Shown here: positions 3,151 through 58,660 of the stretch, in pieces
Layout: each line of letters opens with the position of its first letter
Numbering within the stretch: position 1 is the stretch's first letter
NCBI GenBank assembly: GCA_031213475.1
Contig: JARUPZ010000008.1
Span: forward strand, 9,863,076-9,927,075
Length of the DNA: 64,000 nucleotides
Direction: 5' to 3'
DNA from: Nereocystis luetkeana
Lineage: Eukaryota; Sar; Phaeophyceae; Laminariales; Laminariaceae
The notes under the pieces: generated by a model
What the model saw: the letters and a program-made list of their open reading frames with translations, nothing else
The model's database searches: none
What the model was told of the DNA's origin: nothing
Translations under genes and position numbers: made by a program

Positions 3151-5651
3151 TGTTTCTTGAGACTTTATCACATACAGGTGTCCGCTTCTTCTTTAGCTTG
3201 CGGGCGGGAGGCAAATTGGTAGGCGGTTCGTCATATCATTGGCGCAGAACGGGCGGAGACGCTGGTGTTGAGCACTACAGCAAATAATTAAATACGAAAA
3301 TCCTCTCTCCTTGGTTGGTAAATATTTTGCATGATTATCACCCCAAGTCTGGTAGCCAACCCTGCCTGTAGTATGCAGAAGAAGTACAAACATCTCCAGC
3401 GTTGTCTGAGGTTCGCCTGCCATTACGTGTGAACCCATAACCTATGGTGGCAAACTACAGTAGCTATGCGTGCGCACGTCAGGTTTTGATTTCCACGCAG
3501 AAAATAGCAAGGAGGGGAGAATAAAAATGCCCCCAAGGTAGCATAGCAACAACACATACATGACGTAGACAACCGCCAGACAGAGAGGTCTGGTATCCTA
3601 CAGTCGGCGTGATCGCTCGTGGTGGCGTGCTTGATGTAGTCTACTCTTGGAGGCGCGTTTAGCTTTCGATGGGCCCCTAAATAATACCGGGGGAGATCCT
3701 GAGTATCTATAACATGAATCTGTCTCAACATCGGGCGAGAAGCGATGACCGACCGAACTGTTGCACATACCACGGTAGCGTATGCTTCAGACAACACCCA
3801 GCGACGTCTGGCATCCTTCAGGCGCTTTCATTGCGATTGGTATCATGCTTTATATTTCTGGGGGCACGATGGCTTATTGTGCCCCCAATTCTGGGGGGGG
3901 CAATACGTTCAATTGCGCCCGTGAGCAATTCTACCATCTAAGATTCTCCCGAAAAACTACTAATAGCTGTGTGCGTTTTGAAGATTATGACATTAGAAGA
4001 AGCAGAAGTAGCGAGTACATTTATAAAATATTTGTTTAATTACTAAAAGCGTATACTACCCTAGTTTAGCAGCTCGGCATTGCTACCTTCATCTAAGAGT
4101 CGTGTTGGAGCTAGGATTTACGTGACATATTGTTTCAGTAGACAGCAATGCATCCATGGTCTGTAGCACGGCAGTCGTGTGGTGTATGTACCACGATACG
4201 ACTAGACTGATAAATGAGTATATTCGTGAGATACCTGGTATGTATTATAAATATTAATATTAATAGTATCCACTACAAAGGTGTACCGAGAACGTCGAAT
4301 CCGCGTTTGTTTGCAGTATTTAGACCGAATTTTTGAGTAGCAGGAATAGTTAGATAGTTCAAGCAGAGAGTTCGAGACCTTTTCGGGGTTTAGGAGTTTG
4401 AACGACAAGTCGTACAAGTAGCGCTTACGCACGCGGTCATCGAGATGAGAGGAACTGAAACGTTTGCACACGCTAACGTCCTCCATGCCTGTTCACACCT
4501 GGTTACCAGCTGGTGAACTCCCACAAGCTCATAGTGAAACCGCTTCTTCTACTACCCAGAGAGCGGGCGTTTGAACGTCGACAAAGCAAAACTCAATATC
4601 CACTAGAGAATCGACCCCCTGTTAATATCGGAGAGAATCATCCGTTATCGCTCGGCTCAACCAACATGGCAATCACATAATCGCAGGGCGCAGGACCGCC
4701 GATTTTTAAAACCCGTGATACATGTAGATACTCGTACGACGCGCATGATAGAGGGTACTTTCGCTGTGTTATTGACGTGTCGCTCAACACGCGAATGAAT
4801 GAGGTAGGAGCAACACGCAATGAAATTGAAGGCATATCCCCGGGGGGGGGGAGTGTAGGCACCTACTACTTCGGCATCGCCAGAGGAGGGTCTTTGGGTG
4901 AAGATTCTCCGGCGAGCTGAGCTGTGGAACTGGGAAATACAAGTGGCGACACAAAACTACCAATCCAATATATACTGCATAAATAGACAGATCGGGGACT
5001 GCCCTCCTGGGTACTGCTGTAGTACCAAAGGTCTATATATAGGATGACAATCGAACACCTCGGTCTTCAACGTGTTATCGAGAATCGAAGCTTCCCTAGA
5101 ACACCAGCTCTGATGGGGACACCGTTTGACAAAGGTTTGCTCCGAACTTGTGCGAGTTTCTCGCAGGGACAAAGCGTTGTGTATACCACAGCTTGCTACA
5201 GTAGTAGTACAGTTGTGTTGTGTTATTGTACTTGAAGTGAACTTCATATTTTGTTCATCATCATTTTTTGGGTGAAGACGATTCGTAACATGGTTTCTTA
5301 CAGCGGGCTAGATTTCACGGAAGTGATGTAAGGTGAGAGCATCACCATCATCCTAACCACCATCAGCATTGTCACCTTTATCGTCATCATCAGAATAAAC
5401 CTCTCTTATATTTTCGTGCACCTAGTTTCAAGGCGCGTACATGTGTACCTGATACAGAAGTATGCACTGCTGCTTGTAGTGTATACGCATTTGTTTGAGC
5501 AGTTCGCCGCATGCGTCTTTATCATCAAACGCATGGTACTGCAGCAGCTGCTGTAGGCATGCTGTTTGTGCTCGCCGGTCTTTATTTTGTTTCGTCTGTT
5601 TTTCCAAAGGCGCCACGCTTGCTCCGTGCAGACTCTCTCTCACCATCAACA

Positions 5652-5712
5652 GCTTCACCTTCCATGGCTCGAGAGAGTCTTGGCTTCACCTTCCATAGCC
5701 CGAGAGAGCCTT
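5652..5712. repeat. 31-bp tandem duplication
   Basis: CTTCACCTTCCATGGCTCGA and its continuation are repeated immediately at 5683 with five or so changes. Confidence 0.8.
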
Positions 5713-7847
5713 ATTGTCAGCACCATCCGGGGTCGTCCCTCTGAGAAAAAATCTCGTAACCAGACTTGAATAACTGCTGTGTACCTGGTATAGTCCAAGC
5801 GCCAATCCTTGGAAAAAGGGATACTAACCCTACCATTGCTGCTGCAGTACAACAAGTACAGAGCGACACAGCTGCCATATATCTAGTATGATGCAGAGAA
5901 TCGCCAACACAATCGAAACGCGGTGCGAAACAATACTACCGACCCTTGACCGGCCACAAATCCTTCGCGCTTACTGGTACGTATTTTGATCGAAGTATCA
6001 ACGCAGACAGCTTGCAAAGAAAGATGGGTTTCGACGAAATACTCGATATCACAGCTGTTTCTTATCTTTTTTTCAAGTATATTTAAAAACCCCAGGAAGT
6101 AAGTACGTAACTGCAGCAACTTATTCTTTCATCTTCTCGAAGTTACAACGAAAACGTTATTCTACTGGTTGTACTTACGATATGTAACAAAGGAAACTAA
6201 ACTTACGTACCAGGTACCAGGGATTAAATTTCGCAAACAAGAACATTAAACGTTGGAATTCGAATCAGAGAAATAGGAGCAGAACCGCTTTTTTTTGGCG
6301 ACAGGCACCACAGACCAAGAACGTGGTGTCAAAAGTACGAATGTTGAAGTTGTCTCTGCCGCTACGGAAACGCCACAATTCTATATATATCAAGAAGTAC
6401 ACAGCTACATAATGGTGGTAGAACAAACGACCCCCCAGAGAACGTTATCGTTGTGATTTCGAGTTCATGTGGTGAGGCTCTGCTTTTCCACGTACGGGTG
6501 TGTGTGCTTGAATCGTTGCAGCAGGCCCTCAAAACACGCAGCAAGCTTCGTGCTGTTAGCCACTACAGAGCACCTCTCTCGTACTACCAACATGTACTAA
6601 TAATGCTGTAGACCACTACCATGTGTTTCTTCCGCACTTTTGTTTTAATAGTTTTGTTTCTGGTAGGTACGGTATTCGAATGTCCACCGGTGATTTGGAG
6701 CATTTGGCATTTTTTGTTTCCCTACTTTTGCTTACAGCAGTATACTGTAGTAGTTAGTTAGTTATTTGCAGTGTAGTATCATAGGAGTTTTTTACGCATC
6801 TTCTTTTGGTCTCTTTTTTTCATTGCTATTTTTTTTTGTGTTTTGGTCGCTCTTGTGAGCAATCATACTACTGCTGTATGTATAAATCGTATTGGAGGCC
6901 GAAAGCGGAAAACAGAGCAGGATTCCCTTCATCGTGTAGAAACTCCAGGGTAGTTCGGTCGGTAGACGTGAGCCGACATTTAATTTCCGATTTGCTGCCC
7001 TAACATTATAAAAAAGCAGAGCTTTCAACACACAGCACCTGCCGCTCGCTGCCGATTCCTCGCCTCACGGGGCACGATATGACGCCAAACCTTCGAGGCC
7101 GTATGATCTCCACTGCCCTTAGAGTGCTCGACAAGTAAGTGTGACGGTCGTTGATGCTGTGTGGCCGGAGGTCTTCCTCAAGACATCGGAGCCTGACACA
7201 GTTCTGGCCGGATTTGTTTCGGACGGAAGTAGTGGGTCCCAGTTTCGTCTGACAAATAAACGGCCAGGAAAAGGTCAGGCTCTCACGTACGTCCCGATCG
7301 GGTATCCGGCCGCACAGCATCGACAAACCCTCGAACTTGGTAGCGAGCACTCGCAGAGTAGTAGTGGAGCCTATAGCCTCTAAGGTTTTGCGGCATCTAT
7401 CTGGTGCCCTATAAAGCGAGGAATCATCGGCGGTGATAGGTAGGTCCTGGTGGTGTGTGTTGAAAGCGTAGCTTTTTCCTGCTGCATGCTGCGGGATACC
7501 AAATAATCAATCCCATCGTCTGTCTGTGTGGGTTTCGACGTTTCAACACAACAAAGGGAAAATCATGTTCCGTCATTTAATATTATTAGTCGATGTCGGG
7601 TCCCACAACAAAAGTCAGCGGAGGAGTTTGTACTGAATTTCGAACCCCACGTGGGTCCGACGTCTGGGTAAATATTATTAGCAAAACGAGTAGGAAACGG
7701 AATCAACGGCTGAGAGCCCCCAGCACCGTGGTTTGGTGCAGTTCGAGGCGAGTCCAAAAGAAAAATAGGGGCTGGGGGTATCCTCGCGATAAGAACGCAA
7801 GGCGCGAATCGGAGTGGGATGCGGGGAGAAGAGCCATGTTTTTGATC

Positions 7848-8692
7848 CCGAATCTGAGGGCCGGTCTTAAAGAGGGAAAAAAACGAAAAAAAAACGAAAA
7901 AAAAAAAAAAAACTTTCGTTTTTCGCAAAAAAACAGCAGGTTGAGTCCTATCGGGGCAAAAAAAACGAAAAAAAGAACGAAACAAAAATAAGAACCCGAT
8001 TCGAATTGTTACGCGGTGCATGTTTTCGGAATGACTCAACCGCCACAGCACGTGGTTCCCGGCGATAGCGCTCGACAGAGACGGTGGAAACCCACAACTC
8101 GAACACGTAAGGCACCCTCCACAGCAGGCGGTTCTCGTGGTCCAACCCGCTCTCTGCGGAGTGCTCTAGAACTTATGTATCGGCCATCGCTGTTCGATGG
8201 CAGACGTTTGAATGTTGAGTGGGACTCATGTCGAAAAATATACCGCCACAGCCACTTACTTCCTGATCCCCCGGTTTCTTGCGAGGGCACCCCCTGGTGA
8301 TTCCCTACCCATACTTGCTCGCGCCGTCAGCAGACAAGCCGCGTGGCAGCCACGTGCACTACCTCGGCCATCGTGCGCTTGCCAACCGGTCGTAGAAACT
8401 TTATCGGAACTTTATCCCAACGCTTCGAGCTTCTCCAATGTTCCTCTTCGACCCTGCGTATCCCATATTTTGTTTATTATGTGGCACCCATTTTGTTTTT
8501 GTTTAAGTACTCTTTAAGTCCTTTGGGACTAAAAAAAAAGAACTGTGAAAACGGAGGTATCGGGATCTCCACTTCTAATTTTTATAATTTGACCAATAAA
8601 ATTCACGTACCAGGTACTTTTGAGTTCTGTTTACCGTTTTTCATTCCGTTTTTTTTTTTTTTTTTGCCCTCGATAAGACCGGCCCTGAGTGA
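7848..8692. repeat. Inverted pair of AGGGCCGGTCTTA-plus-poly(A) ends
   Basis: At 7856 the + strand reads AGGGCCGGTCTTAAAGAGGG followed by A-rich DNA. The reverse complement of 8651-8688 reads AGGGCCGGTCTTATCGAGGG followed by about 21 A. The two may be 3' ends of retroposed copies in opposite orientation. The poly(A) link is inference. Confidence 0.5.
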
Positions 8693-9066
8693 CTACTATT
8701 AATAGGTGGGAGTCAGATTGCGGAAATTCTCTGGACAATAAAAGAGCTCGATGTGTTTCAATTGCTCAGAGTTGGGAACCACAGCAGTATTTATGTAGAC
8801 GGCCAACTGCACTATTAATAGGGAATTATTCATAGTCTAGTGGGCTATCCTCTATTCTAATAATTGTTCAGGTCTATAACCTTCGTGCACGGTTGTACTA
8901 CTCCTATACCTGGTACCGCCCTAGGGGAAGGTGTAACAAAAGGACAGTTAAAACATGAGTATGATCACCAAGTGGTCTTTACATTTATTTGCGCTTGGAT
9001 TGGTATCGATATGTAGGACGAATGAAACCCGTCCCCGGGATCTCTGGCCTGCACATTGAATCTTGC

Positions 9067-9575
9067 AGTAGAACCCGGGTATCGTGGTAAGAGAACATGG
9101 AAGGCAGGGGCTGTTTTGAACTGGCTAGGAAGGCAGGTTCTCTTATTCAGGAGACTCCATGTGTTGTGGTTCTATTACGGGGGGCCATAGTTAACAGGAC
9201 CTATGGTATACATAAAAGCCTATATCTTTAACAATTTGTACTAACAATATTTGGTCCTGTTAACTATGGCCCCCCGTATTAGTCTTCTTCGTGACGAGGG
9301 GTGGGAGGGACCGGTTGAGAGAGATTCGTTAGGGGATTGATTCAAGACGGTAAGCCCACTCTGCTTTCCTTCTAACAACCCACTAGACGGGTTAAGACAC
9401 GTGGCTAAAAACATTTTTCCCCGGGCGATTGTCTGCTCTATCGACTATCCCAACCATTGTACTCCAAGGGAAACTGCAGAGCCCCGGGGAAGAAATTCTT
9501 CGGGTGTTACAAGTATTTGGTACCTCGGCTATCCCATGACCATTCTATAGTCCAGTACTACTACTCCGCATCACA
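9067..9575 (+). repeat. Dispersed repeat R5, copy 1 (split by MITE-1)
   Basis: It aligns collinearly with 11588-12005. Shared blocks include GGTTCTCTT.TTCAGGAGAC, ACCCACTAGACGGGT, TTGTACT.GAAGGGAAACT and CCCATGACC.TTATAGTCCA. It carries a 105-bp MITE-1 at 9175-9279 that is absent from copy 2, so the MITE came after the duplication. Confidence 0.8.
9175..9279. mobile_element. MITE-1 copy A
   Basis: 105 bp with terminal inverted repeats TTACGGGGGGCCATAGTTAA, flanked by TA on both sides (9173-9174, 9280-9281). No coding capacity. It is inserted in repeat R5 and has the same orientation as the inner copy at 62509. Confidence 0.9.
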
Positions 9576-10106: not shown

Positions 10107-10109
10107 CGG

Positions 10110-11580: not shown

Positions 11581-11587
11581 CCAAGTG

Positions 11588-14625: not shown

Positions 14626-15539
14626 GTGCATTGTAGCACAGTAGTAGCTAGCAGTGTGCGCTACACTTCAAAAACGTGTGCCAGGGAAACGGTGCCACAC
14701 GATCTGCAATCCCGTTGCTAGTGACATCGACAGCAACAACAACAGCGGTGTCGAGTGTCGCGTGCCAGGACGGTCGGTCGCTATCACCACACCACACCAC
14801 TGACGGAAAGCACGAACAAACGAACGCAGAAACGAAACATCAACCTACGTATAACAACTCAAACACAGCGTGTTTAAAGAAACCAATGTGTATTACTGCT
14901 GCCGTACCATGCGTCTTGTCGAACCCGAAATATACCAAGCACTCTTCCTTGAGGGCAGCCTTGAGGCATTGCGATGCCCATTGTTGAGTGCGGTGGTATC
15001 TTTTATAGAGCTCGATGCTAAACAGCGGGCGGGGTATTTAGAAAAACATCGATCGGCTTGTTGATCTTCGTGGTGCACGGTCGTGCGTCCTAGCATGAAG
15101 GTTTCCTGCATATCTGTGTGAGTAGCCACACTTCGTCGCACAGGGCCCGGAGAAAATAAAACACACTGGTTCATCAGGGAAACGATATACTACGGCGGGT
15201 CATCGTCGCCGTCGTCAGCAACCCGCCGGGCATAAAAAACAGTGAACCCCGCGATGTTTACAAGCTAGACATGTACCTGGTACGGTATTTACTACTACTA
15301 CTTGGTTATGAACACTATGTTCCCCCGGAATAATGGGCAAACAAGTCATGATCACTTTGCGACCGTCTCTGGAGAAAAATGTGCAATTATCATTACATTC
15401 TGTCTGTGTGTTCTTCACGTTACACACCCGTCCCCACCAACCCAACAAACCTCCAACCCTCTCAATCAAATACAAACTCTCCCTCTCTAACCCTTCTCCT
15501 TATCTGTGGGCATTGGACACACTGATAGTGGTATACCAA

Positions 15540-17575
15540 CGTGGCATTTCGAACAAATTGATCGTCTCCTAGATCGATTGCCCTGGCAGTTCCAATCAAT
15601 AGACAGTCTCCCACAACATATCTCCGGCTAATAGAGCGTCTCTCAAACCAGTAATAAACTTATTATCCTAATACTAACAAATAGTCTATAATAGCAGTCT
15701 CCCAAACAAAGCAGTTGTTCGGACAATTCCAATTATAGTAGACCGTCTCCCACTGAAAACCAATTGAAACGACGAGTCGAATTAATGGACGGTCTCCCAA
15801 ATCAATTTTCCGGAATATCTCAACAATTAACATTAGCATAGTCTTATAACCATGTATTATCCTGACTATCGCAATTGTTAACACACTGTAGAGTGATCGC
15901 GTTCTAAATAAAGTGTCTGTGCAATTCCAAGCCTAAAACGATCTCCAGAATCGAATGACCGGACACTTGCAACTAATTAATATGAAAAAGTGCAGACTTG
16001 GGTATAAATGATTTACATGATTTAGAAAAGTATTTTCTGGACGAATTACATCTGAGCGCAAGGAAAGGAAGTATCGTAACGTTCCACTCTCCATACGGAC
16101 ACGTGCAGTAATTGATGTACCCCGGCCATTTGCTACTAACAACCAATGTCTTGGACGATGCAATGGACCTATTCATAAATAATAATGTATTATTCTTGCT
16201 CCAGCAGCACACTCGCGAACGGGCAACTGCCATTGACATGATGTCAGAGACTGATTTCCAGTAGTTAAAATTGGGGAGACAATTGATCTTGAAGGCTACT
16301 GGTATCAATTATCCCTTAGGACTGCAGTCAGTCCCGGTTTGGCGACAAACTGCTGCTAATTTGAGTGTTTTGTCCCCCAAACGGGACTGCAGTTAGTTTT
16401 CAAAGCATATGTTCGGACAATTGACTCGGTGGGACAATGACAGGTCAAACGGGTGGTTTGAATAGTTGGTGTGTGGTGGTCCATACCAATTCCAAATCGT
16501 TAGAACAATCATTTTTGAGCCCCTCTATAAATTATTTGAAATTGTCCTGACATTTAATTACGGATGCTGCCCATTGACTGGAAATGTCTGAACAGTTAGT
16601 GTATACCTGGTAGTGTTTTCAAAGAAGGGGAGTGGCCCAGACAAGTATAACAGAATCGGGGGCCTCCTATTACTAGTTCGAACTGCCCTGACAATCGATT
16701 TTAAGCGCTTCTTTTAAATTGAAATTGCCTTTTTTTTTAAACGAGGGGTGTATACGAAGTGGAGTTGTCGCGGCAACAGCTTCCGGAGTCCGTCCATTAG
16801 CTGGAATTGTTCCGACCATTGGTTTCGGAAGCGATTTGCCTACTACATAGGATCGTCCGGACAATCGAGTTTTAAGAAGGTTCTGTTATTTGAAAACTGC
16901 CAGCTACTTCTGGAGCTACAAAAATATAGGATTTAGTCAGTACCCTGGTACACCACAATAATACCTTGGCTAGTTTTTCCTCTATACCAGGTATATAACA
17001 GCATTATCGGGAATTTCCTATATATATATATCCAATTGTTTTTGCAACGTACTGAGATATACGATCAAGTATTTATTCGAGCGGTGTCTACCAATCCTAG
17101 TATACCTGGTGCAATTAATATGTTCAAAGCCATGGTTTTTCTGGAGCAATTGAGTTCTTGGGCGGCCACTGAAATGAATACCTGGTACGAGTGGGCTCTG
17201 AAATGAATACCTGTGGTATAGTGCTGAGGAAAATTTCGAATCGCCCAAATCAAGGGAATGGAGAATTCAGTACCCTAAATCCATTGTTTGGACAAATGAA
17301 TTTCATACAGACAGAACCTCAAAGAAAATGTTCGGGCAATCAAATCCGATAGACAGCACCCGACACAAATTCTGTTGACCATTCCAAGTATCGGACAGCA
17401 CCCAAAATCAACCGTCTTCGACAAATAAATACCATACCAGTTCATAGACAAGCGTCGAAACCAACTGCCTGAACAATTCCAACTACCTGGTATTACATTA
17501 TAGATGGTCCCCAAAACCGATATTCCGGACAGTTCTAGTCAACACACAACCTCCAAAAACCGTTCATCATCCACG
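15540..17575. repeat. Degenerate minisatellite field, about 40-60 bp spacing
   Basis: The phrases GACAGTCTCCCAAA and CGGACAATTCCAAT or close variants recur irregularly, for example near 15564, 15605, 15692, 15735, 15788, 16860, 17330 and 17510. This indicates an old tandem array. It is interrupted by a MITE-2 at 16311-16400 and contains four perfect TACCWGGTA palindromes. No gene. Confidence 0.6.
16311..16400. mobile_element. MITE-2 copy
   Basis: CCCTTAGGACTGCAGTC, GGCGACAAACT, TTTGAGTG, TTTGTCCCCCAAACGGGACT and GCAGTTAG occur in family order, with inverted-repeat arms. The flanking TTAA is not preserved. Confidence 0.7.
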
Positions 17576-19470
17576 AAAACGACTATCAACAGTCTATCGT
17601 CGACATGGTAAATGTTTAAGGTTTGTTGTTTTACTGGAATATTGCGCTGTACGAGCTCAATGATATATTCTCTATAATAATATCTCGAACAACAACTACA
17701 GGAATGCCTTTCTTCGGGCTCGATATATTTGGCTTCCCGCTGATAAGAACAGCTTTCGGGGTCGATCAGGCCCTAATTTAATGACCGCCTGGTGTTTCAT
17801 TCATCTTGTCCCCCCTTCTCGCCTAATAATCGAGTGCGTGCTTATATATATATGTACGTGAAGTAGCTGGCTAATTGCGTACTGGTAACAGTTACTGTAA
17901 AAAGTACCGGGGTATCCCATTTTGGACTGCACGCCCGTTTTTGAGACGATTGGGGACATACATACCCGATGAAGGTACTATATATACTCGGAATTGGAGT
18001 GAGTGTAGGTTCGCGTATGGGCAGCGCAGTCAACCGGAGCTGTAGCATCGAAAATAAGTACAGTAGTATTATTTCCGAACTACTTGTCGTGGCTTTATAC
18101 CACAGAGCTGATACCTCTCTAGAACGGAGAATCGGCACGGACGCTGGGTGTCCTGGATGTCGAAGGGTAAAAAGAAAACGGTCCGGGCATGTATGTTGTG
18201 AAGGACATACGCAGCTGGAACTTTTAGAGTACTACATACACTACTATCTGTACATTATTACACGTAACCCGGATATCCCCCTAGTTCCGAGTGTTGCGTC
18301 CCAATATCGGAACTGCGGTCCTAAAAGGGTTTATTAGTAGCGGGAGTGCAGTCTATAGGTGGAGAGCGGGCGACCGCTTTTCCAAACGACTTGATAGACG
18401 ACCTTGATATGCCCGCGAAAACTCACAAAATCCGCGTCCGTTCTCCTATAAATCTCCTATCAACAAGTTTGGAACGAAATTTGGGTGCCGTGCGCCGTCG
18501 TAAATATTGATAGTTAGTTGGCGCGCACGACCGCGTACTATTAATACGAAGAGGGCTCCACATACATTACATACAGATAAATGAACCAGAGTGTTGCGTC
18601 CTGAATGCTGCTCTGTTCCTGCTCGCTGTACCACAGCATACCGCATGTTTGGCGAAAAAAAAAAAAAAAAAACTCTCGTACGCGAAGTATATAAATATTG
18701 TGGGAGGGTGTGTGTCTGCGGTGTCTACTCTCTTCCTGCGGATGTGTTCTTTCTTCCCTTCAACTTCCAGAAATCTCGGTGTCCGTGCGTCCGTGTTCAT
18801 TCTTTTTTTGCCAGATCATATATAAATAAATTGTGTGCTGGTCAAACACTTCGACACGAATACAATAATATGGTTCCTGTGTCGTCGTAGATACAGCGTG
18901 GAGAGTAAGCAATTAATTCGGCGACATGCCAGCATGCGTGACCGCTGTGGATACGACGATCACAACATAATATACACGGCATCGAAGCAGAACACGGGGT
19001 CGCACGAAATTGAACGAGAGCAGCATGAAAAAGAAAAAGAATAACATATATATTATGCGCAATCGGTTTCCTCGGGTATCGTACGTACGAGTCCAGCATA
19101 AAAATGGGTGAATCTGTCCACGCGCGACGACTTGGGGCAGGAAAAAAAAAAACGAGAAATAAATAGAAACACGAGTATAGGGACGAACAGAGTATTATTC
19201 CAAAATTCATCCCATATAAAAAAAGCTGAAAATATCGAAATATCGGACCTCGGTCGGGTAATCGTCGTATTGCTATATATCTGTGTATCAAAGGAGGAGT
19301 GTGATACCTGATGATGCCAAAAACAGGCTACCATTATTACTGTAGTATCAGCAACACCTACCTAAAGCGTCGAAATGTATGATATCTATGTGCAGTGTGC
19401 AAGCATCACAGCGAGCGGTACGATACTAGCATGCATGTTATACCACTATTTTGAGTGAATCGACTTTATC
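17576..19470. other. No supported gene; A-rich tracts and repeat ends
   Basis: Contains a partial MITE-2 right arm at 18295-18335 (GGAACTGCGGTCCTAAAAGG) and A-tracts at 18655 and 19142. ORFs are short and low-complexity. Confidence 0.4.
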
Positions 19471-19616: not shown

Positions 19617-19619
19617 AAA

Positions 19620-21040: not shown

Positions 21041-24000
21041 GTAATGTAGTGATTTACGAATCTTGCAGCCTGTACGAGTACAACACACAAGATACCGCAC
21101 ACCCTGGAGTAATTTCAAGATATGTTTCCTCCCTATCCCAAAGACGCGCGCGCACACACGACGGGTCGGCGGCTTTGTTTTGGCAAGATCTCGTCGTGAT
21201 GTTTCTAGAAGAGGGCGTCCCGCTCGGTGTTTGCTTTCTCGAGGTTGTCAAGAACATGCGAATTGAAATTCGCATCCAGGAGGTGAGTTGCGTTGCATAT
21301 TTCACGTTAACGACAGAAAACCGAGATTATGGTGTGTCGTGTATGTCTTGTTCGCAATAATCCGGCATTTCTACCCGTCGATTATCGCCAGCGACTGGGT
21401 ATTTAATCCTGTACTACAACAGTAACTGCACTGCATAGCCGGAAGAGCTTGCGGCAGCAACCTAAGCATCACAATGCTCCACATCCACGCCTGTGGTATA
21501 TCTCCTTATCCGGCAGCCACTGATCAGACCTTTTCCCGTGACCGATGCTGTGCAGCTGTAGGGCGTCACATCTATCGGAGATGTGTGCGGTGCCTCTGCT
21601 GTATTGTCCGCATGACCGTCTTGATTTTTGTGATTCGTCGCGCGGCGCAGCTGTCGTGTAGGCCAGGATGTTTTGTCAGGTCACAAAATATCTCAGAAAC
21701 GCTTTGGTCAAGAAACGAAGGCAAAACGACATACCATAATTCTCGTATGTCTGACTCGAACGAAACTCACGACGAGTAGATATAAAGCTGCCTGTATGCA
21801 GACAAATCGTATCACCTACCTGGTATACGTTACTTTGGGTACACGCGCATCTTTCGCGTGCTGACACCAACTAGAACACGCAGTTCACACTTACTTGCGT
21901 CACAGACGCGTTCGCTGTGGCGCAGGGCAGCAGGGTCTGTGTCAGGCCACACTAGCCTGCCGCTGAACATAACACCAACTCGAGGATACGCCTGATTTAT
22001 GGTCCTCCCAACATGTTGTGCTCTCGTTGTTCTTGTGGCCAGGTGCACGGCACTTCGGCCGGGGGAGATACTGACGAGCTGCGCCTATTGAGCACGAGCT
22101 CGACCTTCATCAACCTGCGTGCGTACGGCGGGAACCTGGATTTCGTTAGCACCAAGGTGCGTTTTTGCGAAACTTTTGTTTGTCTGTCCCAGTCTTTTTT
22201 AAACCGTTTTTCTTCTCCCCGAGGACTTCCAGCATATGTATCCAGCGGTCGAGCTATATGATTACAGCCTACGACGCGGAGGTCAAATATTGTGTGATGC
22301 AGGGGAGGGAGAGTAGACAGGACAATGATATTCCATCATTGTGGATACGACAAGCATTACGATAGCATTTGATGCACGCACCCGCAACCCAAATACTCGA
22401 GGTCAACACACACATTTTGCGTTTTGCGCCTCGAAAGCTAAACCAATCTTCACGCCTTGGGCCTGTCTTCACAACTCTGCCTCGCGGCGTCCTCTCGATC
22501 GTAAGTCAACTGCTACGGCAGAAGAACTGATATCAGGTACAACACCATTCGGGTACAATAAGCTGTGTCGACCTGATCGGTCATTTTCCCCCGTACATAC
22601 TCGTATAAAAAAGACACGTTTCCTCGCCTCTCGACAATACTCGTCATTTATTTGCGGACGTCTCGGAAATGATCAATTAGGAGAGCTACGCTTCCCACCC
22701 AGGCCTGTGGGATGCGTGTGGCCAGAGTGGCTCCCAGACCTCAAACGGCACCTGCGGCCGGCTGTTTCTCGCGTCTGCACCTTGTGGGTGGAAACAAGAT
22801 GACAAACGGGAAGGGCCCACTGCGCGCCAAAGTACCAAGCCTGACCAGGGCGCCAAGCGCGGCTCGCCCACGCGATATACTGCCGTAGTTTTCTCTGGAG
22901 CTTGCAAATAGTTGCCTACAATGCGCCTGGTATATAATTTCGAAGGTTCGTTGAATGAGAGAGCAACGAAAGAACGAAAGAACAAAAGAAAAGAAAAAAA
23001 AAAGACAAATACAGCAGTATTAATAGTAGTGTATACTGCTGTGTAGGCGTGTTCTTCAGATCGTTCTTCCTGCTCGTCGACATCCAGCACGCTTACGTAG
23101 TGACTACATAGTGTTTATTCGCCCGATCATAGATACCAGGGTAGGTACGATCACTAAGCTCCGCGGGCACGAGCTATGAGAATCATGGTGTTGGTATGAA
23201 CCAAAGGCGCTGCATTGTTTATCAACATACCAGGTATCGCCTCTTTGAGCTTTTCGTTTATTATTATTTTTCTTGCCATCCGACAATGTGCAGCACGATC
23301 TTCATCATGGATCACTCATAACTTTCTCGAAAGAAGAAAACCTCGGAAACAAAAGGAAACCCATGCACCAAGTCTACCTCCCTTCCGTGCCAACTTTCAG
23401 CTTGTCTACTCTATTTTTTGCTGTATTTATTTGCTCCTTCCTTCTCATTACGTTCTATCCTTAAATCCTGAACTATTGTTTGTGTTATTATGGCCTTTAG
23501 TTTTGCGTCCACCGTAATTCCCATATATATGTTGCGTTTCGGTACAGTATAGTTCTGTTGAGTTACGCTAAATTTACCCATATATAAGATGTACACAATG
23601 TGTATCCTAAAACGCTTCAACTTGGGAATACATACCTGGCATTTTTCTGCCACTACCGTTCCCGTTCTAAAATCCACATAATGTATGTGTATGACCTTTA
23701 ACATACCACACTCAAATCCATACAGACAGGAATAAATGAGCAAATAAAGAGAGCCGGGTTGTTTTATCGTGCTCACAAAGAAAAAGAACCAACACTACCC
23801 AACCTCACCTACTACTACTACTATTGTAACACTAAGGGTATATGACCCAGACATTAGTAACAACACGTCGCATATTATGCCGTTCAAGCATCGGAATGCT
23901 CAACCACTGCTTAAGAAAGAAATGTAGAATTTGTGTATGTGTGTTCGTCACATTAAACGGTAACTGGTACCAGGTATCTACTTTTCATCTATGTACATGT

Positions 24001-27000
24001 CGACAATCCAGCACAACCAGTGTTCGTGCTGATTTTTCATCGCGGAGAGATACAAGCTCTGTGGCCACAGAACTACTGCTTGTCTCCTCGTACAGCACAT
24101 ATATACTGGTGCGTTCTGATATACCTGGTAGCAGCAAGCAGTGGTCTACCATGGTATCAAAGTGGAAACAACCATAAAAGAAAAAAAACCACGCGCCTGA
24201 AACCCAGATCGGATACGTTTAAAATTTGAGTACCGCAGTCCCTATTCGGGGGACAAACCATTCTAAGTCCGAGTGATTTGTCCCCAAACGGGACTGGGGT
24301 CCTTAAAGGGTAAAAGAAAAATAATGGAGAACACGGAAAAACAAAAGGCGGAAAGGAAGAAAAGACAAAGCAAGAAGGAGAAAATAATGGACGAATGAAA
24401 CTCGATCAAATGGTTAGATAACGAGCAGTACTCCGATCACATAGCACGAACCAGCAAAGAATCCCCAAAGTACAAGGGAAGCCAGCAAGGGCACACAGCA
24501 GTCGATAAGGAGACCGAAGCACGCAAAAAAAAACGGGTTAAACACACTTCTTAAGAGTCATGATCGGCTTACCAGGGATCGTCGGTGCTCGTCAGCAATA
24601 TACGGAAACAGGTCAGCATAGTATGTCAGGTTACAACTTAAGATCTTCATCCAACCATCGTGTTACTCTTGTCCACCTGGCAAGTTGAGTGATGTGTGAG
24701 TCCTGTCTGTGTTTTTCGCGTTCATCCGATACTTTCGGTGGATGTTGTAACAGTATAATAATCCAGTTATTTCCCTGAAGTATACCGTATGAACGTACTG
24801 TTAATATTATCAATATTATTAACCGTACAACCTCGAATAGAACAAGAGGTAATTACTGCTGTATAGGACGTAGCTGCCCGTTTTCGTGGGTTACTACGGT
24901 TTTCGCCTTGACCAGTGCCGGTGGACCCCTCCGCGCAACATCGCAGATCGTTGCCTGGAGCTTTGAACGGCAGAGTTTCTAGTTTGGGTTCCTCTATTAA
25001 GCCTTTTAAAACCGCAGTCCCGAATTGGGGGCAAAGCAATTAAATTATACATAGGTCACCCCCAAGACGGGGCGGCAGTCCTAAAATGGGTAATAGGCGT
25101 TTTTTTTGTTTTGTCAAGGCGTCTTTGTCGATCAAGAGGCGTTTCTGTATCCCAAAGAGCGCGACGACCAGCCCCCTCCTCCTGGACAGACAGTGCTTGA
25201 AGAACGATATTGTCACGTTCTTCAAAAAAATTTCTCGAAGCTAACCGTTGCATCCTCGTCTCTTTTCCGGACGCCGTCGGTGAGGCCTCCGCACCCCATT
25301 CGCGCCCCATTCATATTTAGTGTTAAATATCGAACGACAGTCGAGTTTGATGAGGGATCGACAAACAAACAAGAACAACAGCAGTGTCAGGCACTCGATA
25401 CGATTTCGATATTTTGATGCATTGAAGCTTGACTTCGGTGTCAACGCGGAGAGCACGAATTTTGGGAACAGCATATCACGGGGGGTGTCAGGGAATGGAG
25501 GAAGGCGCCATACACTGTCGATACGCCATGCCGATGTATCTCGAACCTTAGATACGAGAAAATACAACGCGAGTTCACGCGTTGGTTACCTTCGAAGCCG
25601 TCGAACACGCAATCTCTAAACAATGTTTTGCGAATCGAATAGTGATGCCGTACCGCCGTCGCACGTATCCCCCGCACCAAACGTTTTCGTTGGGTTCACG
25701 CGCCCACGCTGCCGCTTCGCTCTCAGGTGTTCGGCTGGGATACCTCCGACAACGGCCCTCGCGCGCCCGACGAAGATGGTCGGTCGTTCATCAGCGCCAT
25801 CTCGGAGATCATCACCGACAGCAGCGAGACCTGCGACGGAAATGCCAAGAGCAACATGGGAGAGGCGCGGATGGATATCGAGGACAGCGAAATAGCTTAC
25901 CTCGGGTTCCAGGATGGCGAGAGCTACGGCCTCACGTGGAAGGTGGGACGCGGTGGTGATTTTACTACTTTTGTCAAACACTATGTTGTGTCAGCAGTTT
26001 ATCGCATGTACAGGGTGTTGCACTGCGGTTACACCGCAGGTAATCGTTGTAGTTGTGGGCAGTTTCATGGGCTAGTATAGCGGGCCGAATTTTCTTAGAA
26101 CTGCATCTCCTTCTTGAAGGAGACACTTCTTGGTGATACTTTTCGACCCCTCTTGCAGTCGGAAACTGAAAAAAAAGAGAGTCGCAGAGGCGCGGGGGGA
26201 GGGGGCTCTCTGCTCCATTCCACAGAGAAGCTTAACAACCGATCGATTCCTGCTCTTCGGTAAACGTGCTACGCCAGTGGCCATTGCACATAAACCGACT
26301 CTGAAACCGTCCAGGGAGTACACTGGGGCGGGAAAGAGGGGTTATCCTTCCATCGCAAAGGCATACTGGCAAAGAAAATGCTCGCAGCCGGAAGCACCTC
26401 ACGTAGCGCCTCCATGAACGAATATCTAGCGCGTGAGGTTCTCGAGGCAGCCGCCACCGCCCTAATAATGGCCACAGGCGCAATAGGGACACGCTGCGCT
26501 TCGTAAACCAGCTTCTCGAATGTATTTGTAAGCGACTCAGAAAGAACGGAGCGTTTGCAGTCCAATCGTCGCCAGTGACGCGATCGGGTGGACTTTTCTT
26601 TTTGCTTCCCTCTTTTGCCAAGGCTAATTGATACACACTGTAGTATTTAATTGTTGAAGTAATAATGATGTACCAACCTGCATACACCCCTACCCTCACA
26701 GTGTACACCTCGGCTAAAGTAACACTTAACCCTTTAAGGGCAGACTGCAGTCTCGTTTTGGTGACAAATTACTGATAATTTGAGTGGTTCGTCCCCTAAA
26801 CTGATTTACTTTCGATAACAATGTTACTGCGGGCGTCAACGGGACTAGAACGCGACCTTGACCTATGTCAACGGGAAAACACAGCATCTACATGATACTT
26901 TAGAATTTCGAAGCTCACAATACAGGTCTGTTTTATCTAACGTATTGCGTTCCCACGTTTGCCTGCCATCTGCTTCTGCTGTGGTGCTCATTTGATCAAC

Positions 27001-37540: not shown

Positions 37541-37542
37541 TA

Positions 37543-48030: not shown

Positions 48031-48031
48031 A

Positions 48032-48136: not shown

Positions 48137-48346
48137 TACCACGACGTGTCGCGCACGGTATTGTTCCAAAAATAGTATCGGGTATAAAAGTGCCTACTTA
48201 AAGGCCGAGGTCTAGCATCCTTTCCAACCCTGACCCCATCTCTAACCCCAAGCCAAAACGGTTTCTCGAAACCAGTGTTGAGGGAAGGTCAAGAGCTCAC
48301 GCAACTGAGGAGCCACAGAAAAACTAGGGTGCTGCTCCTGCCGTAG

Positions 48347-52679: not shown

Positions 52680-52776
52680 TTAAACCTTTCGGGACTGCAG
52701 TCTCCTTTCGGCGACATACTGCTTGGAATTTGAGAGGTTTACCGCCTAAACGGGGCCGCGGTTCAAAAAGAGTTAA
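52680..52776. mobile_element. MITE-2 copy
   Basis: TTAAACCTTTCGGGACTGCA to GGGGCCGCGGTTCAAAAAGA then GTTAA. TTAA is present on both sides. Confidence 0.75.
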
Positions 52777-54250
52777 TGGGCCTGTACTACTGTTTCGCGC
52801 ACGTTGCGGGGAGAACCGTTTTGTCGGGCCCCACACCACGGTTGCACTAAGAGTCCACGTGTCACACGCAGCTAGCTTGCAACGACGAGGTTCGAGGTTC
52901 GATACCACCTCTAGCTGAGGTTGTCTTTTCTGATATCTATCTGTAAAGCTGAGAGATTCATGATGCGAGAGACATTATTACCCGACCGATCGTGACGTGG
53001 TGGGATCCCTTTACATGTGTGAATTTGATCGAGCATGTGTGCGGAACTTCGTAAGGTCCTTTCGAGGATCCACAGCCACAATAGGAATGCACCGAATTTT
53101 GCCCTGCGGGGCTATCCTGGCATGAGAAGCTATCTCTCTATATATATATGTTTGTAATATATATATATGTATTAATCCTTTCCTCGACCAAACACTGACG
53201 TCCAGAAACGCTGAGCGTGCAGCCCGATCGCCTACAGTAGTACTACTGTGGGTACCTACTCCAACAGAAAAACCGTAACAGCCACGAATGGGTGTCACAG
53301 GCCTGTTGTTGGGCAAGTTTCCTCGGTTACAAAACAGCCCCGGCAGTCAGGAAACGTTTCGGCTGAAAACGTTGTATACTACTGCTACGAGTATGGGCTC
53401 AAACGTAAAGAACGCTCGGTCTTCGTATTGATGTATGAACTGTCCTTATATTTCTCACGCAGAGTGGTTTTAGACCTACCGTCGTGTGATTTGTTTTTTT
53501 TTCTGCCCCGGAGAGCCGGAGAGCGAGAGGAAACCCCTGTCTGTCCACACTTATTTCTCAAGTTTTCGTGTACCGGTTCGAACCCGGTTCATTTCTTCCA
53601 CCTTGGTCGGGCCTGCCTGTGGCCGTCATTAAAGTGTGCTTTACTCCGAGGATGTAGGCACGTCAGTCTAGATATTATCTCTCCCGACACGACCGTCGTG
53701 CGATGCAACACCCTCCCCTCCCTCTTAGTAGAGGCAGCGACGAAGACTCTGTCAGGTTGTGGACTACTGTAGCATTACAGGACAGAGTGGGCTGGATGAT
53801 GTGGGCGGAGGAGGTAGGCTGTAAGATGTGTGAGTTATGAAAGTGATGCAACGAGAGTATCGAATGTCAGCAAGGTCGTTCTCCGGGAAGCCACATTTAT
53901 TTGCGACCGTTGCCATGCGTTTTCCGAAGCGCACTTTGTATGTATGTGTGGTTTTCAGCAGCATATATATGCCGTCACCTCCTTGTCGCTAACATACACT
54001 ACAGCACCGGTCTTAGAAAAAATGTCAGATGTGTACGTGTGTGGTACCACAGGTAGGTGTGCGTATCATAGGTGGTGCGGGCCATCCACACGCCACCACA
54101 AAAAAACATGTCAGTCAGTGACTAACAACAACGAAAACAGGGGCACTGGGTAGATGAAGCGACCGCAGCAAACAGCAGTCCCACCTTGAACAGTAAAACG
54201 AAACAACACGTACCAGGTACTGCTGTAACACCGTGGGTATACGCAAACGG

Positions 54251-54268: not shown

Positions 54269-55383
54269 AAACCAAGTATCCCCGTGTCAAAAAATAGAGT
54301 TTTGAAAGGCCCTGCCCTCTCTGCACAATGATACAACCATACGTAGACCATTTTACATTATTTATTTACTAGAACGGTACTGTAACTGCCCGTGTCCAAA
54401 TCACCCCTATATGATCGGGGGGGAAAAACCTTGAAACCTGGTATATGGAGTACAAGAGGTACCTAGTACCGGTAAATACCTTGTAGGTACCTGGTTTGTT
54501 GCTTTTTTTCACTGCTAAATTTGGAGCCGTGCTAAAATAGGGGTCACAGCGAATTTGGTTACGACGCCTGGCGTGAGGAAGCTACATACCGTAAAGGGCG
54601 TGGCGTCCGCGTGGGGGTGCGCGATCGGTTTTCCAAGCGCTCGTTCTCTCGCAACAAGGTCGAAGCTCATGTTTTCTGAAAAGAGCTCCCTATCAGATCG
54701 TTCCGAAAAACACGGTGAAATTCGGTTTGTTGGCAACCTTAACCTTCCCCTTCTGGAAAGTTCGAACGCCGAAAACTCGACAAATTGCACACCGAAAAAA
54801 AGTTGACACACCCCTGTGCAACCACAACGCTCTTTACGCTATTATTATTAACAGTTCTTCGGTAGGGGAAACGCATACATTTGCTGAGCCTCCTCCCTTG
54901 GAGTATAAGCTCCATGCCTCACCCACTACCGTTTTTTTTCTTTCTTTTTATTAAACTTAAAAGCTACAGCAGCAGCTGTGAGATCGGGGATTTCGCCGAA
55001 GCTCATGTTTGCAAGAAGAGCCGTGTGTGGTGCTTTGATCGCGCGTACTGCGAGTTTGATATGGCCTATTTATGCAAGGAACACAGTCCGTATGTGAGGG
55101 AGACTAAATCTGAAGCCGCAGAATTCAAGGAGTGGAGATGTCAATAGTAGGGGCATATATCTATGTATATATATGTAGCGGCTTAACCCGATGAGCTGTA
55201 GTAGTTAAAGTAGGTGTAAACCCATAAATAGTGCAAAATTATATATTCGGATAATAACGGGTATAGCTCCTCAGCCCAGGAACTACTCGGAACATCAGAA
55301 CATGTTGGGCTGAAAAGTGCAAATTACCTCTATCATAGCACGCGTCGTTAACTCATCCCGGCAATCGACTTCGAGAAGAAGTG

Positions 55384-55485
55384 TTAACCCCTTTAGAACC
55401 GCAGTCCCGTTTTGGGGACAAACTACTTGAAATTTGAGTGGTTTGTCCCCACATATATATGGGACTGCGGTTCTAAAGGGGTTAA
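55384..55485. mobile_element. MITE-2, best-preserved copy
   Basis: 102 bp including TTAA at both ends. The arms TTAACCCCTTTAGAACCGCA and TGCGGTTCTAAAGGGGTTAA are perfect inverted repeats, and the inner arms GGGGACAAAC / GTTTGTCCCC extend the hairpin. A CATATATATG block has replaced part of the right inner arm. TTAA flanks with CCC termini fit a piggyBac-type MITE, but that assignment is inference. Confidence 0.88.
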
Positions 55486-55969
55486 GACATGCTCGATAGG
55501 ACACAGTAGTCGCACCGGGGTACGTATTATGTATATGTGTATAGTACTGGACACTCCATAGCCCAATTGAACGAGAGTCTTGGACGCACTCGAGGTCGTA
55601 CTTCATAACGGGTATTATAGGGAAAATAGCGGAAAACCTCCTCGTATAGCTGTGCATCAGTAGGCTACAGTAGGCTAGCGTTCGGCATTCTCATCGTATC
55701 TCGAACATTACCTGGCGACGTAAATTAGGTTGATTCCGACGCCCCCAGGCCGCAGCGTTGATGCGTATCGATTGGGTGCACGAACGCTATACGGGATGTA
55801 GATGAAACGAGATACAACTACCATATATATAGCCCTTAATATAGCACAACCTATTGGACGAATTATTCCCGCGCTGGCTTGCTTCAAAACATGGAGGGCG
55901 CAAACAACGAGGATGGTGGTTTACGAAACACCGCCGCCTCGTCTGCGGTCGACAAGGATGTCTGCAGCA

Positions 55970-58660
55970 ACGGCCGGCCAGAGTGCGGACGACGAATCTA
56001 TCGCTCATACCCAAACCGCGTGTGTGGGCGACAGCTCTATCTCTCGCGACTATAGCAAACAGTATGGTCGACAGCCCTGTCGCCCGAACCGCTGCCGTGG
56101 GTGTGGCCGACGAGGTTGTCGTCCATACGGCTGCACGATCGAAAAAACAAGGCTAGCACCCACACCCGTCGGGGTCTATGCAGGAGACTTTAGCCGTACA
56201 CACAACACGACACCCGAGCGGCGACACGCGCGTCGCCCCTCCGCGGGCTAGCCGTCGTACGGGCGACAATGGTGTGGTGTATCTCCAATATATGGTACAT
56301 GGGGCACGCTTCGCAGCTAACGACGTCTACCGTATGAGGGACAGGCTTGTCGCCACCGCGCGTTATGACATATAAGCCCGAGCGACGAACTTATCGCTGA
56401 TACTAGGCATCGATACGAAAACAACACGCACCTTGCCGTGATCGTCCACGATATACTCTGGCCCAAGCAAATGCGGCTGAGATTTGAGTGCTCAGGACCA
56501 ACGGGTTGTACACGAGGATACTGCTTGCGGGTATACGGCGCTTTACATCGACACTGATAGACAGAAACAACGTGATACGCACGTGATACGTTCGAACGCA
56601 TGACGGTCAATACGAGAGAAGAGGTATTCGCGGACACTAAACAACTGCAACATGAAACTTTTGTTGCGATGACGGCCATGTCCCCCATACGCCACCTCCC
56701 CGTGCGGGTGCTGACCGCAACACAACAACGGTACGACGCCCACGGACCGGCCCACACGTACCTTCGAAGGCCCGAGAGGCCTATCTCGAACTTCATGATT
56801 TCCCCCGAACTCTCAGAAGGCCTACCTTCTCCACCTCTAGCTGGGCGGACACCTGCCGGAGCCGCAAGGAACACCCGCATCAAAACACAGTGCATCAGGC
56901 TCTGGGAACGCACAGGTGCAACGGAGGCACAGAGAGAGCTGTCAACGACGACATGGTGCAAAACATTTCCCGGCCCACAGGTATCCGGCCACCTCACACC
57001 CTCGTAGCCAACTCCTAGCCCGTCAACGAGGCAATCGCGTCTTCGAACGCCCCCCCGTACCCAGCGCCCACCCAACCTTTCATCTACCTCCGTGAACTCC
57101 GAATCCGTGGTGTCTCGTAGATCAGACTCTTTCGAATCCGCAGCTAGCTGTGATCAACGCCACCACCTCTTTGCTCCGGCCCTTACCCCTGTGTCCTTCT
57201 CCCCCACCCCCACCATCACCACCACCGATGTTGTATGGCGCGTCCGGTTCATCAGTATCGGTGTCCCCGTAGGCAACAACGCTTCCCGGTACTACGACCT
57301 AAGAGAAACAGCGAACCCTCGTGCTTTGATCTGTCCGTATTAGGATCGAAGGCGGATCCACCCAGAACGTCTGCGCATCAGGCTTGCTTCGGGTTGTTCA
57401 GGTTCTCCGAGCAAAGGTATTCGTGACCCTCGAGTGACACCTCTCTTGGCCCTCTTGGTCGTATGGCGTCGCCTAGGCCCCGACCTCCCTATCGAACGAC
57501 GCTGGACTAATGTGGGCACAGAGTGACGGTGTTTTGTCGCCGAAGGTCCCAGGGTGCTTCGTGCTACTCCCTGCGTTTACTGGCAGGTTAACCCGCTCAG
57601 CTATCACGTGTGGAGTAATCAAATATAAACAAGTTATTCACCCGCCATACCACGCCCACCCCCCGATTGAAACGTGTATGGGCAACAAGGCCGTCGCCCG
57701 TACGTAAGCTCGGGCCCCTTGTGTAGTGTGCCCTACCGTGCCGTTGATACCCCCTTTGATATGGCGACGCGCTTGCCTCCCGTACGGGTGCTACGCGTAT
57801 CGGCAACATGATTGCCTCGTCACCTATACCTGGTACGTGTTTACGAAAGCCCCGTGATTTGTTCCCTTCCATGACGTTGAAATCCCTGTTTGAGGGCGGC
57901 GCACAGATCTCCCATGCTGGTGATACACGTGTCCGCGACAAGACCATCGCCTATACGGTTCGCGGAACCACTTGCATAATGTTGCCTCCACCACGACATC
58001 GGAACACCACCGTGAAGGCGACGTCCCTGTCTCCTACACGGGTGACGAGCACACAGGCCATAAGACAGCCGGCCGTACGTGTTCGAATTGTTTGCCCTAC
58101 TACCGTGCCATTGAGCCCCCTTTGACATGGCAACGCGCCTTTCTCCCACATGGCACTGTGCTTTAAATAGGGATATGGTCCGGGCGACAGGCGTGTCGAT
58201 GAGGTGGACCGAAATAGCTGATCAGGGGCACATCCGTCCGTTTCCCCTGCGCTTGTACACTCACAGCGAAACCGAAGGAGGTTCCGATGTAACGCATACG
58301 CTTACCGCCCGTGCGGGATTCGCGGTTACATTCCTGCGTGGGAAGCAAAGCCGTCGCTCATACAGTACCAGTACGGGCACTGACTGTATTCTCTACGCTG
58401 TTTGTCTCTTACGCAAGTGACAAGCGCACAGGTGGTGAGGCGGGCAGGCGCCCCGTACGGGTTGTCCAGACCTTCGCATGGTGCGCCCTTCCACGCTTTT
58501 CAACCCCGTCTGTGTTTTCACGCGGAGGTTGTCGCCCGTACGATACTGTGCGTGGCATCGTGATTACCCCGGCGACGGGTCTGTCGCTGGTATGGTCTCA
58601 ACTAGTTGGTCGCCTACATGACACGCCCGTCGCCCATACGGTGCCAGCCTCGTCGCCGCC
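55970..58660. repeat. GC-rich degenerate repeat field (GTCGCCCATACGG type)
   Basis: Variants of GTCGCCCATACGG and GGCGACAAG recur irregularly, strongest at 55975-56350 and 57660-58640. A longer unit (CTACCGTGCC.TTGA.CCCCC then TTTGA.ATGGC.ACGCGC) occurs at 57735 and 58098. Between the two dense parts, 56600-57010 has a + ORF of 135 codons and an opposite ORF of 252 codons, neither with a recognised domain. Confidence 0.5.

Follow-up and report, generated by a model that had tools for sequence, protein, structure and literature searches.

The question raised by this locus is why one nine-base palindrome, TACCWGGTA, should recur throughout a stretch of 64,000 nucleotides of Nereocystis luetkeana DNA (here called the window). 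An earlier note on this DNA had listed 18 perfect copies, all of which are present (0.44 expected; at most 3 in any of 100 dinucleotide shuffles of the window). Comparison of sequences suggests that TACCWGGTA is, very probably, what a TA-targeting cut-and-paste DNA transposon with CCWGG ends leaves behind as its excision footprint. The evidence comes from copies elsewhere in the genome, namely a seven-base gain, a two-sided target preference, one dominant product, decay-like variants, chaining and a parallel scar with a matching resident MITE, and we infer that the 18 copies in the window (Table 1) share a common origin with the copies tested elsewhere.

Abundance and distribution of the palindrome

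Genome-wide (465 Mb), TACCWGGTA occurs 182,395 times as compared to 1,744 times for the reversed control pattern. It is thus about hundredfold over-represented, at a density of roughly 180,000 copies or one per 2.5 kb, which disposes of the concern that genome-wide counts might lie near expectation. Further analyses used a sample of 282,054 bases (including 2,500 N) from the same genome, composed of the window, 20 fetched 10-kb stretches (a pair of these adjoins the window) and six of eight short loci picked for having a match. L005 and L006 were left out as near-duplicates of L004; L007 and L008 overlap by 1,223 identical bases, adding a few same-length pairs to the controls. This sample holds 114 copies of TACCWGGTA, which is its top over-represented nine-base palindrome by z-score (among words of at least three letters). 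Copies are spread unevenly in a descriptive count, with a mean of 4.0 and a variance of 9.1 per 10 kb over 26 bins.

The base to the left of the window copies is R in 15 of 18 cases and the base to the right is Y in 15 of 18, with both in 13 of 18, so that the reported extension of most copies to RTACCWGGTAY holds. The W centre is uninformative by itself: A and T swap with the strand. At 29 bp past the 17179 site a near-copy including the left flank is seen, as TACCTGTGGTA (17208). Rfam returned no matches at gathering score on the window, and ten open reading frames of the window compared with Pfam gave one weak match, below cut-off.

Table 1. Features of the window. Where the basis reads "motif match" without addition, the putative scar reading derives from other copies in the genome.
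Position	Strand	Feature	Basis or remark
4232..4240	.	TACCTGGTA	motif match
5782..5790	.	TACCTGGTA	motif match
6208..6216	.	TACCAGGTA and adjoining second imperfect unit (TACCAGGTACCAGGG)	motif match
8608..8616	.	TACCAGGTA	motif match
8697..8704	.	TATTAATA in TAC-TA context, read as MITE scar	word and left context
8907..8915	.	TACCTGGTA	motif match
9173..9281	+	105-bp TA-flanked MITE copy, ends TTACGGGGG	right end of copy imperfect
15274..15282	.	TACCTGGTA	motif match
16604..16612	.	TACCTGGTA	motif match
16941..16950	.	TACCCTGGTA, candidate longer scar variant	enriched TACCNNGGTA class
16985..16993	.	TACCAGGTA	motif match
17179..17187	.	TACCTGGTA	motif match
17484..17492	.	TACCTGGTA	motif match
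18539..18546	.	TATTAATA in TAC-TA context, read as MITE scar	word and left context
21817..21825	.	TACCTGGTA	motif match
23134..23143	.	TACCAGGGTA, candidate longer scar variant	same word at L016 3768
23228..23236	.	TACCAGGTA	motif match
23968..23976	.	TACCAGGTA, read as scar	motif match and scored related copy
24122..24130	.	TACCTGGTA	motif match
28167..28175	.	TACCAGGTA	motif match
33218..33226	.	TACCTGGTA	motif match
54211..54219	.	TACCAGGTA, read as scar	motif match; flank weakly like site L028 5025
57827..57835	.	TACCTGGTA	motif match
62507..62615	+	further 105-bp MITE copy	

Related copies, target preference and variants

Related repeat copies mostly display TA when empty and TA-CCWGG-TA when filled, a difference of exactly seven bases. 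With alignments below 50 bits and sites with less than 30 bp of flank excluded, a related copy was scored for 14 of the 114 sites, and for 1 of the 18 in the window. Exact removal of seven bases down to one TA fits best in 17 of 28 pairs in the 282 kb of own-genome sequence, seven of the 17 being supplied by L003_1501, where seven related stretches hold a single TA, and one of them (L018_1844) being AT-rich. In the other 11 pairs another length is best or there is a tie; unchanged length is best in a single pair, and one pair ties between zero and seven. At 600 random TANNNNNTA sites used as control, seven bases fit best in 23 of 839 pairs and zero in 706. Counted by site, the majority lies at seven bases in 7 of 14 cases versus 8 of 121 in the control (Fisher p 1e-4). 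The four pairs of L016_3808 fit 8, 7, 6 and 3, and the window site at 23968 scores 52.7 bits with nine bases removed and 49.1 with seven, in a gapped alignment. Among 29 insertion-type TA-N5-TA sites, the CCAGG/CCTGG core is found ten times and is the sole recurrent one, every other core being found once; among cores of one or two bases several words recur, and these are little informative.

Both sides of TACCWGGTA show the flank preference WANNNNR-TA (W at -7, p 1e-17; A at -6, p 9e-16; R at -1, p 3e-8; chi-square on 214 flanks, chained copies excluded). Units also chain as TACCWGGTACCWGGTA (15,917 versus 2). The chained motif was seen in nine stretches of viral contigs, each with just two or three copies, which we read as chance.

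One-mismatch forms number 111 versus 56 expected in the sample, and S-centred forms 13 versus 2.6. The one-mismatch excess is present at all four position pairs of the palindrome, and two of the 12 one-mismatch classes, one of them C-to-T at position 4, show none; the pattern is not fully regular. These variants look like decay, with which the excess would fit, and no sign of selective upkeep is apparent in them.

Candidate longer forms occur as well. The TACCNNGGTA class is enriched (6 versus 1.0 in the window, 19 versus 5.2 in the sample), and not alone, as spacings of six to eight bases are also above control. At L016 3768 the word TACCAGGGTA is aligned with a gap of 8 bp in the related sequence. 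TACWGTA was considered as a third scar (100 versus 43 expected) and stays a candidate on thin related-copy evidence: 4 of 19 pairs lie at the predicted 5 bp and 4 at 0, and among insertion-type sites the CAG/CTG core makes up 5 of 22, level with TAA/TTA.

Excision model, resident MITE and alternative readings

We propose that a transposon whose ends begin CCAGG... (or CCTGG...) would insert at TA, duplicating it. At exit, the transposase would cut one strand about five bases within the element, after which each side of the break would retain TA and a CCAGG tail. The two tails could then anneal through four G-C pairs that enclose one A-A (or T-T) mismatch, and repair would close the break, with the mismatch becoming A or T, to give TA-CCWGG-TA. 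We infer the element as such, the sequence of its ends past CCWGG, the five-nucleotide stagger and the pairing step. Two guesses of the earlier note, the mark of a repair process and a short mobile sequence, come close to such a repaired excision scar. Its remark that the palindrome looks unlike the end of a transposon would be half right: TACCWGGTA would be the product of two short ends after the element had left.

A resident 105-bp MITE, with further copies near 37541, 42059 and 48030, provides an internal control. Its ends, TTACGGGGG, predict the scar TATTAATA, and this word accounts for a gain of 6 bp in 32 of 38 related pairs versus 50 of 550 in the control. The exact-length control pairs, at six bases as well as at seven, may themselves be other scars. 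TAC-TA-GTA flanks are common to TATTAATA and the MITE, and because the two match in ends and target preference, true excision scars seem to be common in this genome. The MITE resembles the system proposed for TACCWGGTA in being TA-flanked, with a TAC-TA-GTA target and a TA scar missing from related copies; its scar and target differ, however, from those of TACCWGGTA, and it therefore represents a separate family. Two CCWGG-type inserts at TA were seen in 35 MITE matches (CCTGGTT in L018, CTGGTA in L009). Viral contigs contained no match to one exact 22-base segment of the MITE.

No intact TA-CCWGG...CCWGG-TA element was found in the 282 kb, a sample too small for a low-copy donor and one that elements longer than the fetched stretches escape. 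Inverted repeats starting with TACC (74 pairs, 50-8000 bp, at least 16 of 24 bases), TA-flanked inverted repeats (196 pairs, 40-2500 bp) and convergent half-site pairs (71; best 6 of the next 10 bases) yielded no CCWGG-ended repeated family, nor did 117 TACCWGG half sites yield one with ends beginning CCWGG. Other TACC-ended inverted repeats (e.g. in L022 and L014) are without CCWGG. The 15-mer TACCTGGTTTATATT, found in three places, was dropped as an element end because the part following the insert in the L018 MITE copy is native MITE sequence. One short pair, TA-CCTGG(15 bp)CCAGG-TA, is confined to a single locus (L007 2208-2236, also within L008) and may be a filler-type scar.

The absence of a donor beside 114 copies of the motif is odd. 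Scars might vastly outnumber donors if excision with a five-nucleotide stagger were far more efficient than persistence of the element, which would be cleared from the genome perhaps by a tamed or developmentally run transposase; we regard this extension as doubtful. If true, it would mean that a eukaryotic genome records the past of a transposon almost completely, and by scars alone.

A donor missing from 282 kb would also agree with a 5-bp insertion at TA without any prior element, for example by abortive transposase or nuclease cleavage and templated or end-joining repair, with which the TA target and the set length are equally compatible. However, a fixed five-base core comes naturally from element ends and not from repair at an empty TA, and TATTAATA does correspond to a resident MITE in ends and target preference, so an element-free origin appears improbable. 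That the palindrome is short, sharply defined and unevenly spread would speak for a protein-binding site (in transcription, chromatin or replication) under selection, as the earlier note had suggested. This guess finds no support, because the testable copies mostly arise as 7-bp insertions at TA and the variants resemble decay; TATTAATA likewise arises by 6 bp, the one-mismatch excess at four position pairs gives no hint of upkeep, and a genome-wide number of this order argues further against a selected site, which we hold to be highly improbable.

In bacteria, CCWGG is a classical target of cytosine methylation. HIP palindromes have been linked to methyltransferases (PMC4390886), and TACCWGGTA might by this token be an iterated palindrome of the HIP1 kind, which mismatch repair coupled to methylation would generate and keep up. 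Such a process would create sites by in-place base changes, whereas the testable related copies mostly differ in length, and it would not be expected to give flank preferences at distances of six and seven bases; we find it less probable still. Neither a regulatory nor a methylation motif reading is supported. The probability that a single longer repeat family, strongly diverged, comprises every copy verges on the negligible. In the wider sample, weak flank similarity was seen for two pairs of sites (window 54211 and L028 5025, 75% over 52 columns; L010 3800 and window 23968, 80% over 50; both E 6e-4), but the flanks are otherwise unrelated in the window, as the earlier note had observed, and in the sample, and no window repeat pair of at least 40 bp has sites on both sides.

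With TACCWGGTA taken as an excision footprint, the genome is best regarded as preserving a very large record of past jumps that can still be read. In many cases transposon scars are ragged and difficult to separate from chance; here, if our reading is right, one clean product would be visible by eye at about a hundredfold over-representation, beside at least one parallel scar type. Excision could then be counted, dated and mapped genome-wide without the element being present, and the rate of leaving versus staying, break repair in this lineage and the seeding of new sites by scars would become testable. A further caution is that a short palindrome, when over-represented in a genome of this kind, should not be assumed to be a regulatory motif.

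Comparison with known systems

The footprint of Sleeping Beauty has the form TAC(A/T)GTA with a central mismatch, and thus a core of three bases as compared to five (CCWGG) here. In this Tc1/mariner element, the ends give rise to three-nucleotide 3' overhangs, which are joined to leave a short footprint (PMC7827188); the duplicated TA target, the end-joined overhangs and the short footprint would be shared by the system proposed here, which differs in its approximately 180,000 word copies and in being known from its scar. A TA target with TA duplication, as in Tc1/mariner elements, is seen at the level of the scar. Tc1/mariner footprints measure 2-4 bp (PMC7913693), a length that is typical and not strictly defining, and the 5-bp core lies outside it; we therefore describe the putative element as Tc1/mariner-like in its working and do not file it as a member.

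In rice, 8 of 94 excisions were perfect (PMC4423477), so that one clean product at the scale of TACCWGGTA would be unusual. Grass Stowaway MITEs leave short end fragments between TA duplications at empty sites and re-insert at old scars, but five distinct putative footprints are described at one intron site (PMC1925063), in contrast to the one dominant product here. Ciliate DNA elimination would be alike in outcome to the doubtful scar-only reading, under which, however, each event would leave a palindrome. Finally, cyanobacterial HIP1 is also a short palindrome of very high genome density (PMC4390886), but TACCWGGTA, where its origin can be tested, mostly arises by a 7-bp insertion at TA (the length change seen in 17 of 28 related pairs) and not by base changes in place.

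Abundance of TACCWGGTA in the window and in the genome

All 18 perfect copies of TACCWGGTA claimed in the earlier note are present in the window at the positions given, where dinucleotide shuffles of the window give an expectation of 0.44. Their flanks look unrelated, as had also been claimed, and no window repeat pair of at least 40 bp carries sites on both sides. Among window 9-mers, the palindrome is prominent alongside microsatellite-like words. The window corresponds to C8:9863076-9927075 of a 465 Mb assembly. The genome-wide count that the same note had proposed as a check yields 182,395 copies in this assembly (one per 2.5 kb) versus 1,744 for the backward control. The excess is a real, strong and genome-wide signal.

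A sample of 282 kb was compiled from the window, twenty 10-kb stretches picked without regard to content, and six short loci. It contains 114 copies versus 2.7 expected, and the 200 kb of the twenty stretches alone hold 85. Other enriched palindromes in this sample are CTATTAATAG (15 vs 0.08), CAGCTAGCTG (15 vs 0.21, for which a repeat array in stretch L016 accounts for at least part), and CTACWGTAG (24 vs 1.8), a candidate third TA scar whose core would be the 3-bp CWG.

One-mismatch relatives are barely raised in the window (18 in 24 classes vs about 11.7, listed expectations summed). The 282-kb sample holds 111 one-mismatch forms vs 56 expected, and 13 S-centred forms vs 2.6. This excess is seen at all four position pairs and is missing in two of the 12 one-mismatch classes (C to G at position 3 and C to T at position 4). 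It suggests a change of about 6% per site, and the copies are presumably unselected, fairly recent DNA; imprecise products instead of decay may account for part of the excess. Units chained at 7-bp steps (TACCWGGTACCWGGTA) number 15,917 vs 2 genome-wide, as would be expected if the TA of an old scar were reused. Longer variants (TACCNNGGTA) are found 19 times vs 5.2 expected in the sample. Counts are also raised when the spacing is 6, 7 or 8 bases (13, 11 and 19 vs 3 each for the control word), with chained units contributing part of the 8-base count.

Gain of the palindrome by insertion at TA in most testable pairs

The flanks of each site were joined after deleting between 0 and 9 bases of the site, and the joined sequences were compared with the remaining sample. 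A scored related copy, i.e. a similar repeat stretch, was available for 14 of the 114 sites, giving 28 pairs. Removal of exactly seven bases, leaving one TA, is the best fit in 17 of these; the remaining pairs favor 9 (three), 8 (two), 6, 5, 4, 3 and 0 bases (one each), with one tie between 0 and 7. As a control, 600 of 1,100 TANNNNNTA sites were chosen at random (121 with a related copy); nothing removed is best in 706 of 839 pairs, exactly seven bases in 23. Site majorities are the fairer count because pairs from one site are not independent, and they favor seven bases at 7/14 palindrome sites vs 8/121 control sites (Fisher p 1e-4). In most testable pairs, TACCWGGTA was gained by insertion at TA with a length of 7 bp.

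Clear cases are position 1501 of stretch L003 (CACTA-CCAGGTA-CATATTACGATC vs CACTACGTGATACGATC or near in seven related stretches), L002_1501 versus L018, and L019_9581 versus L023. The most telling single case is an L016 repeat copy (3768-3816) which carries TACCAGGGTA, TATTAATA and TACCTGGTA within 49 bases; none of the three inserts is present in the related copy at 4950-4824. The four pairs of the TACCTGGTA site divide into 8, 7, 6 and 3 bases. Within the window, site 23968 is the only one of the 18 with a scored pair, for which removing nine bases (52.7 bits) is a slightly better fit than removing seven (49.1). The window's own copies presumably have the same origin.

Outside the scar, each flank separately displays a target preference: counted from TA, position -7 favors W, position -6 A and position -1 R (chi-square p 1e-17, 9e-16 and 3e-8; 214 flanks, chained copies excluded) and weaker signals at -3 and -2. 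Palindromic preferences around TA are known from other elements that target TA; one example is the pogo relative Passer, with AAGTACTT (PMC9976928).

A resident element as internal control

The 105-bp MITE is flanked by TA, has the ends TTACGGGGG...CCCCCGTAA, and is abundant, given 35 matches in the 282-kb sample. Excision keeping two bases per end would give TA-TT-AA-TA. The corresponding TATTAATA had a related copy at 11 of 64 sites, and 32 of the resulting 38 pairs show six bases gained at TA, whereas control pairs were unchanged in 412 of 550 and favored six bases in 50; six-base site majorities are 8/11 vs 12/90. Its left flank (T 0.67, A 0.65, C 0.54) fits that of the resident MITE (T 24, A 21, C 20 of 33 ends). 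Element, target preference and scar are therefore concordant in this genome. TACCWGGTA behaves like the MITE scar, but with another core and another target.

Inserts were further surveyed at TA-Nk-TA sites of the sample with an informative related copy. Insertion-type sites carry CCAGG/CCTGG in 10/29 (k=5), TTAA in 9/66 (k=4), and CAG/CTG in 5/22 (k=3, equal to TAA/TTA). Apart from TATA-like microsatellite words, these are the chief recurrent longer cores. At k=7, CCAGGTA, CCTGGTA and TATTAA-containing words recur, overlapping the same scars; k=1 and 2 yield several recurrent, little informative words. Five inserts of at least 4 bases are listed across the 35 MITE matches, two of them of the CCWGG kind at TA: CCTGGTT (L018) and CTGGTA (L009).

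Features in the window and in other sampled stretches (L numbers)
Feature	Location	Strand	Remarks
105-bp MITE, ends TTACGGGGG	window 9173-9281, 37541-37649, near 42059-42170, 48030-48138, 62507-62615		
Second hairpin element family	window 55381-55488, 24226-24314, 52680-52776, 24997-25093, 44741-44829, 16302-16394, 26719-26801		about 100 bp, ends near TTAACCC; diverged more than the MITE
Inverted pair, 158 bp	window 19475-19632 / 23250-23403		90% alike, 3.6 kb between
Piece of the inverted-pair unit	near window 41814-41876		
ORF	window 38034-38498	minus	NosD-like, weak (E 0.0021, under Pfam cut-off); resembles mannuronan C5-epimerases
Local repeat array	L016, about 3380-5170		GCAGCTAGCTGC-like words abundant in both orientations; one unit holds three different TA scars
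TA-CCTGG-15 bp-CCAGG-TA	L007 2208-2236 (= L008 422-450)		either filler-type scar or tiny internally deleted element

Excision as the most likely origin

TACCWGGTA is most likely a transposon excision scar (TA-CCWGG-TA). With Sleeping Beauty and mariner transposases, the initial nick lies three bases within the element; the overhangs are then sealed by end joining, which leaves a footprint (PMC7827188). For Tc1/mariner, a footprint of 2-4 bp is given (PMC7913693). The stagger of the putative donor would leave a five-base CCAGG tail on each side, and the tails may pair with themselves via four G-C pairs and one mismatch. Such pairing would account for a symmetric scar centred on W and for the dominance of a single product.

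Some points count against excision. No donor element was seen beside the 114 copies of the 282-kb sample. Perfect excisions, with nothing but the two target copies remaining, made up 8 of 94 in rice, the others having deletions or filler (PMC4423477). Ectocarpus has 11,912 Mariner-Tc1 copies (PMC12477816), and the scars would far exceed such an element stock if the present genome is similar.

Of 217 papers containing at least one of the motif strings, the 20 listed seem unrelated, judging from their titles. Among the papers listed on mariner/Tc1 footprints, on palindromes with footprints, and on brown-algal transposons or palindromes, none describes such a scar in its title or the start of its abstract; the words 'footprint' and 'excision' are absent from the main text of PMC12477816. 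Transposon excision scars are a known kind of sequence; the present candidate stands apart by its abundance, by the prevalence of a single product and by a core of 5 bp.
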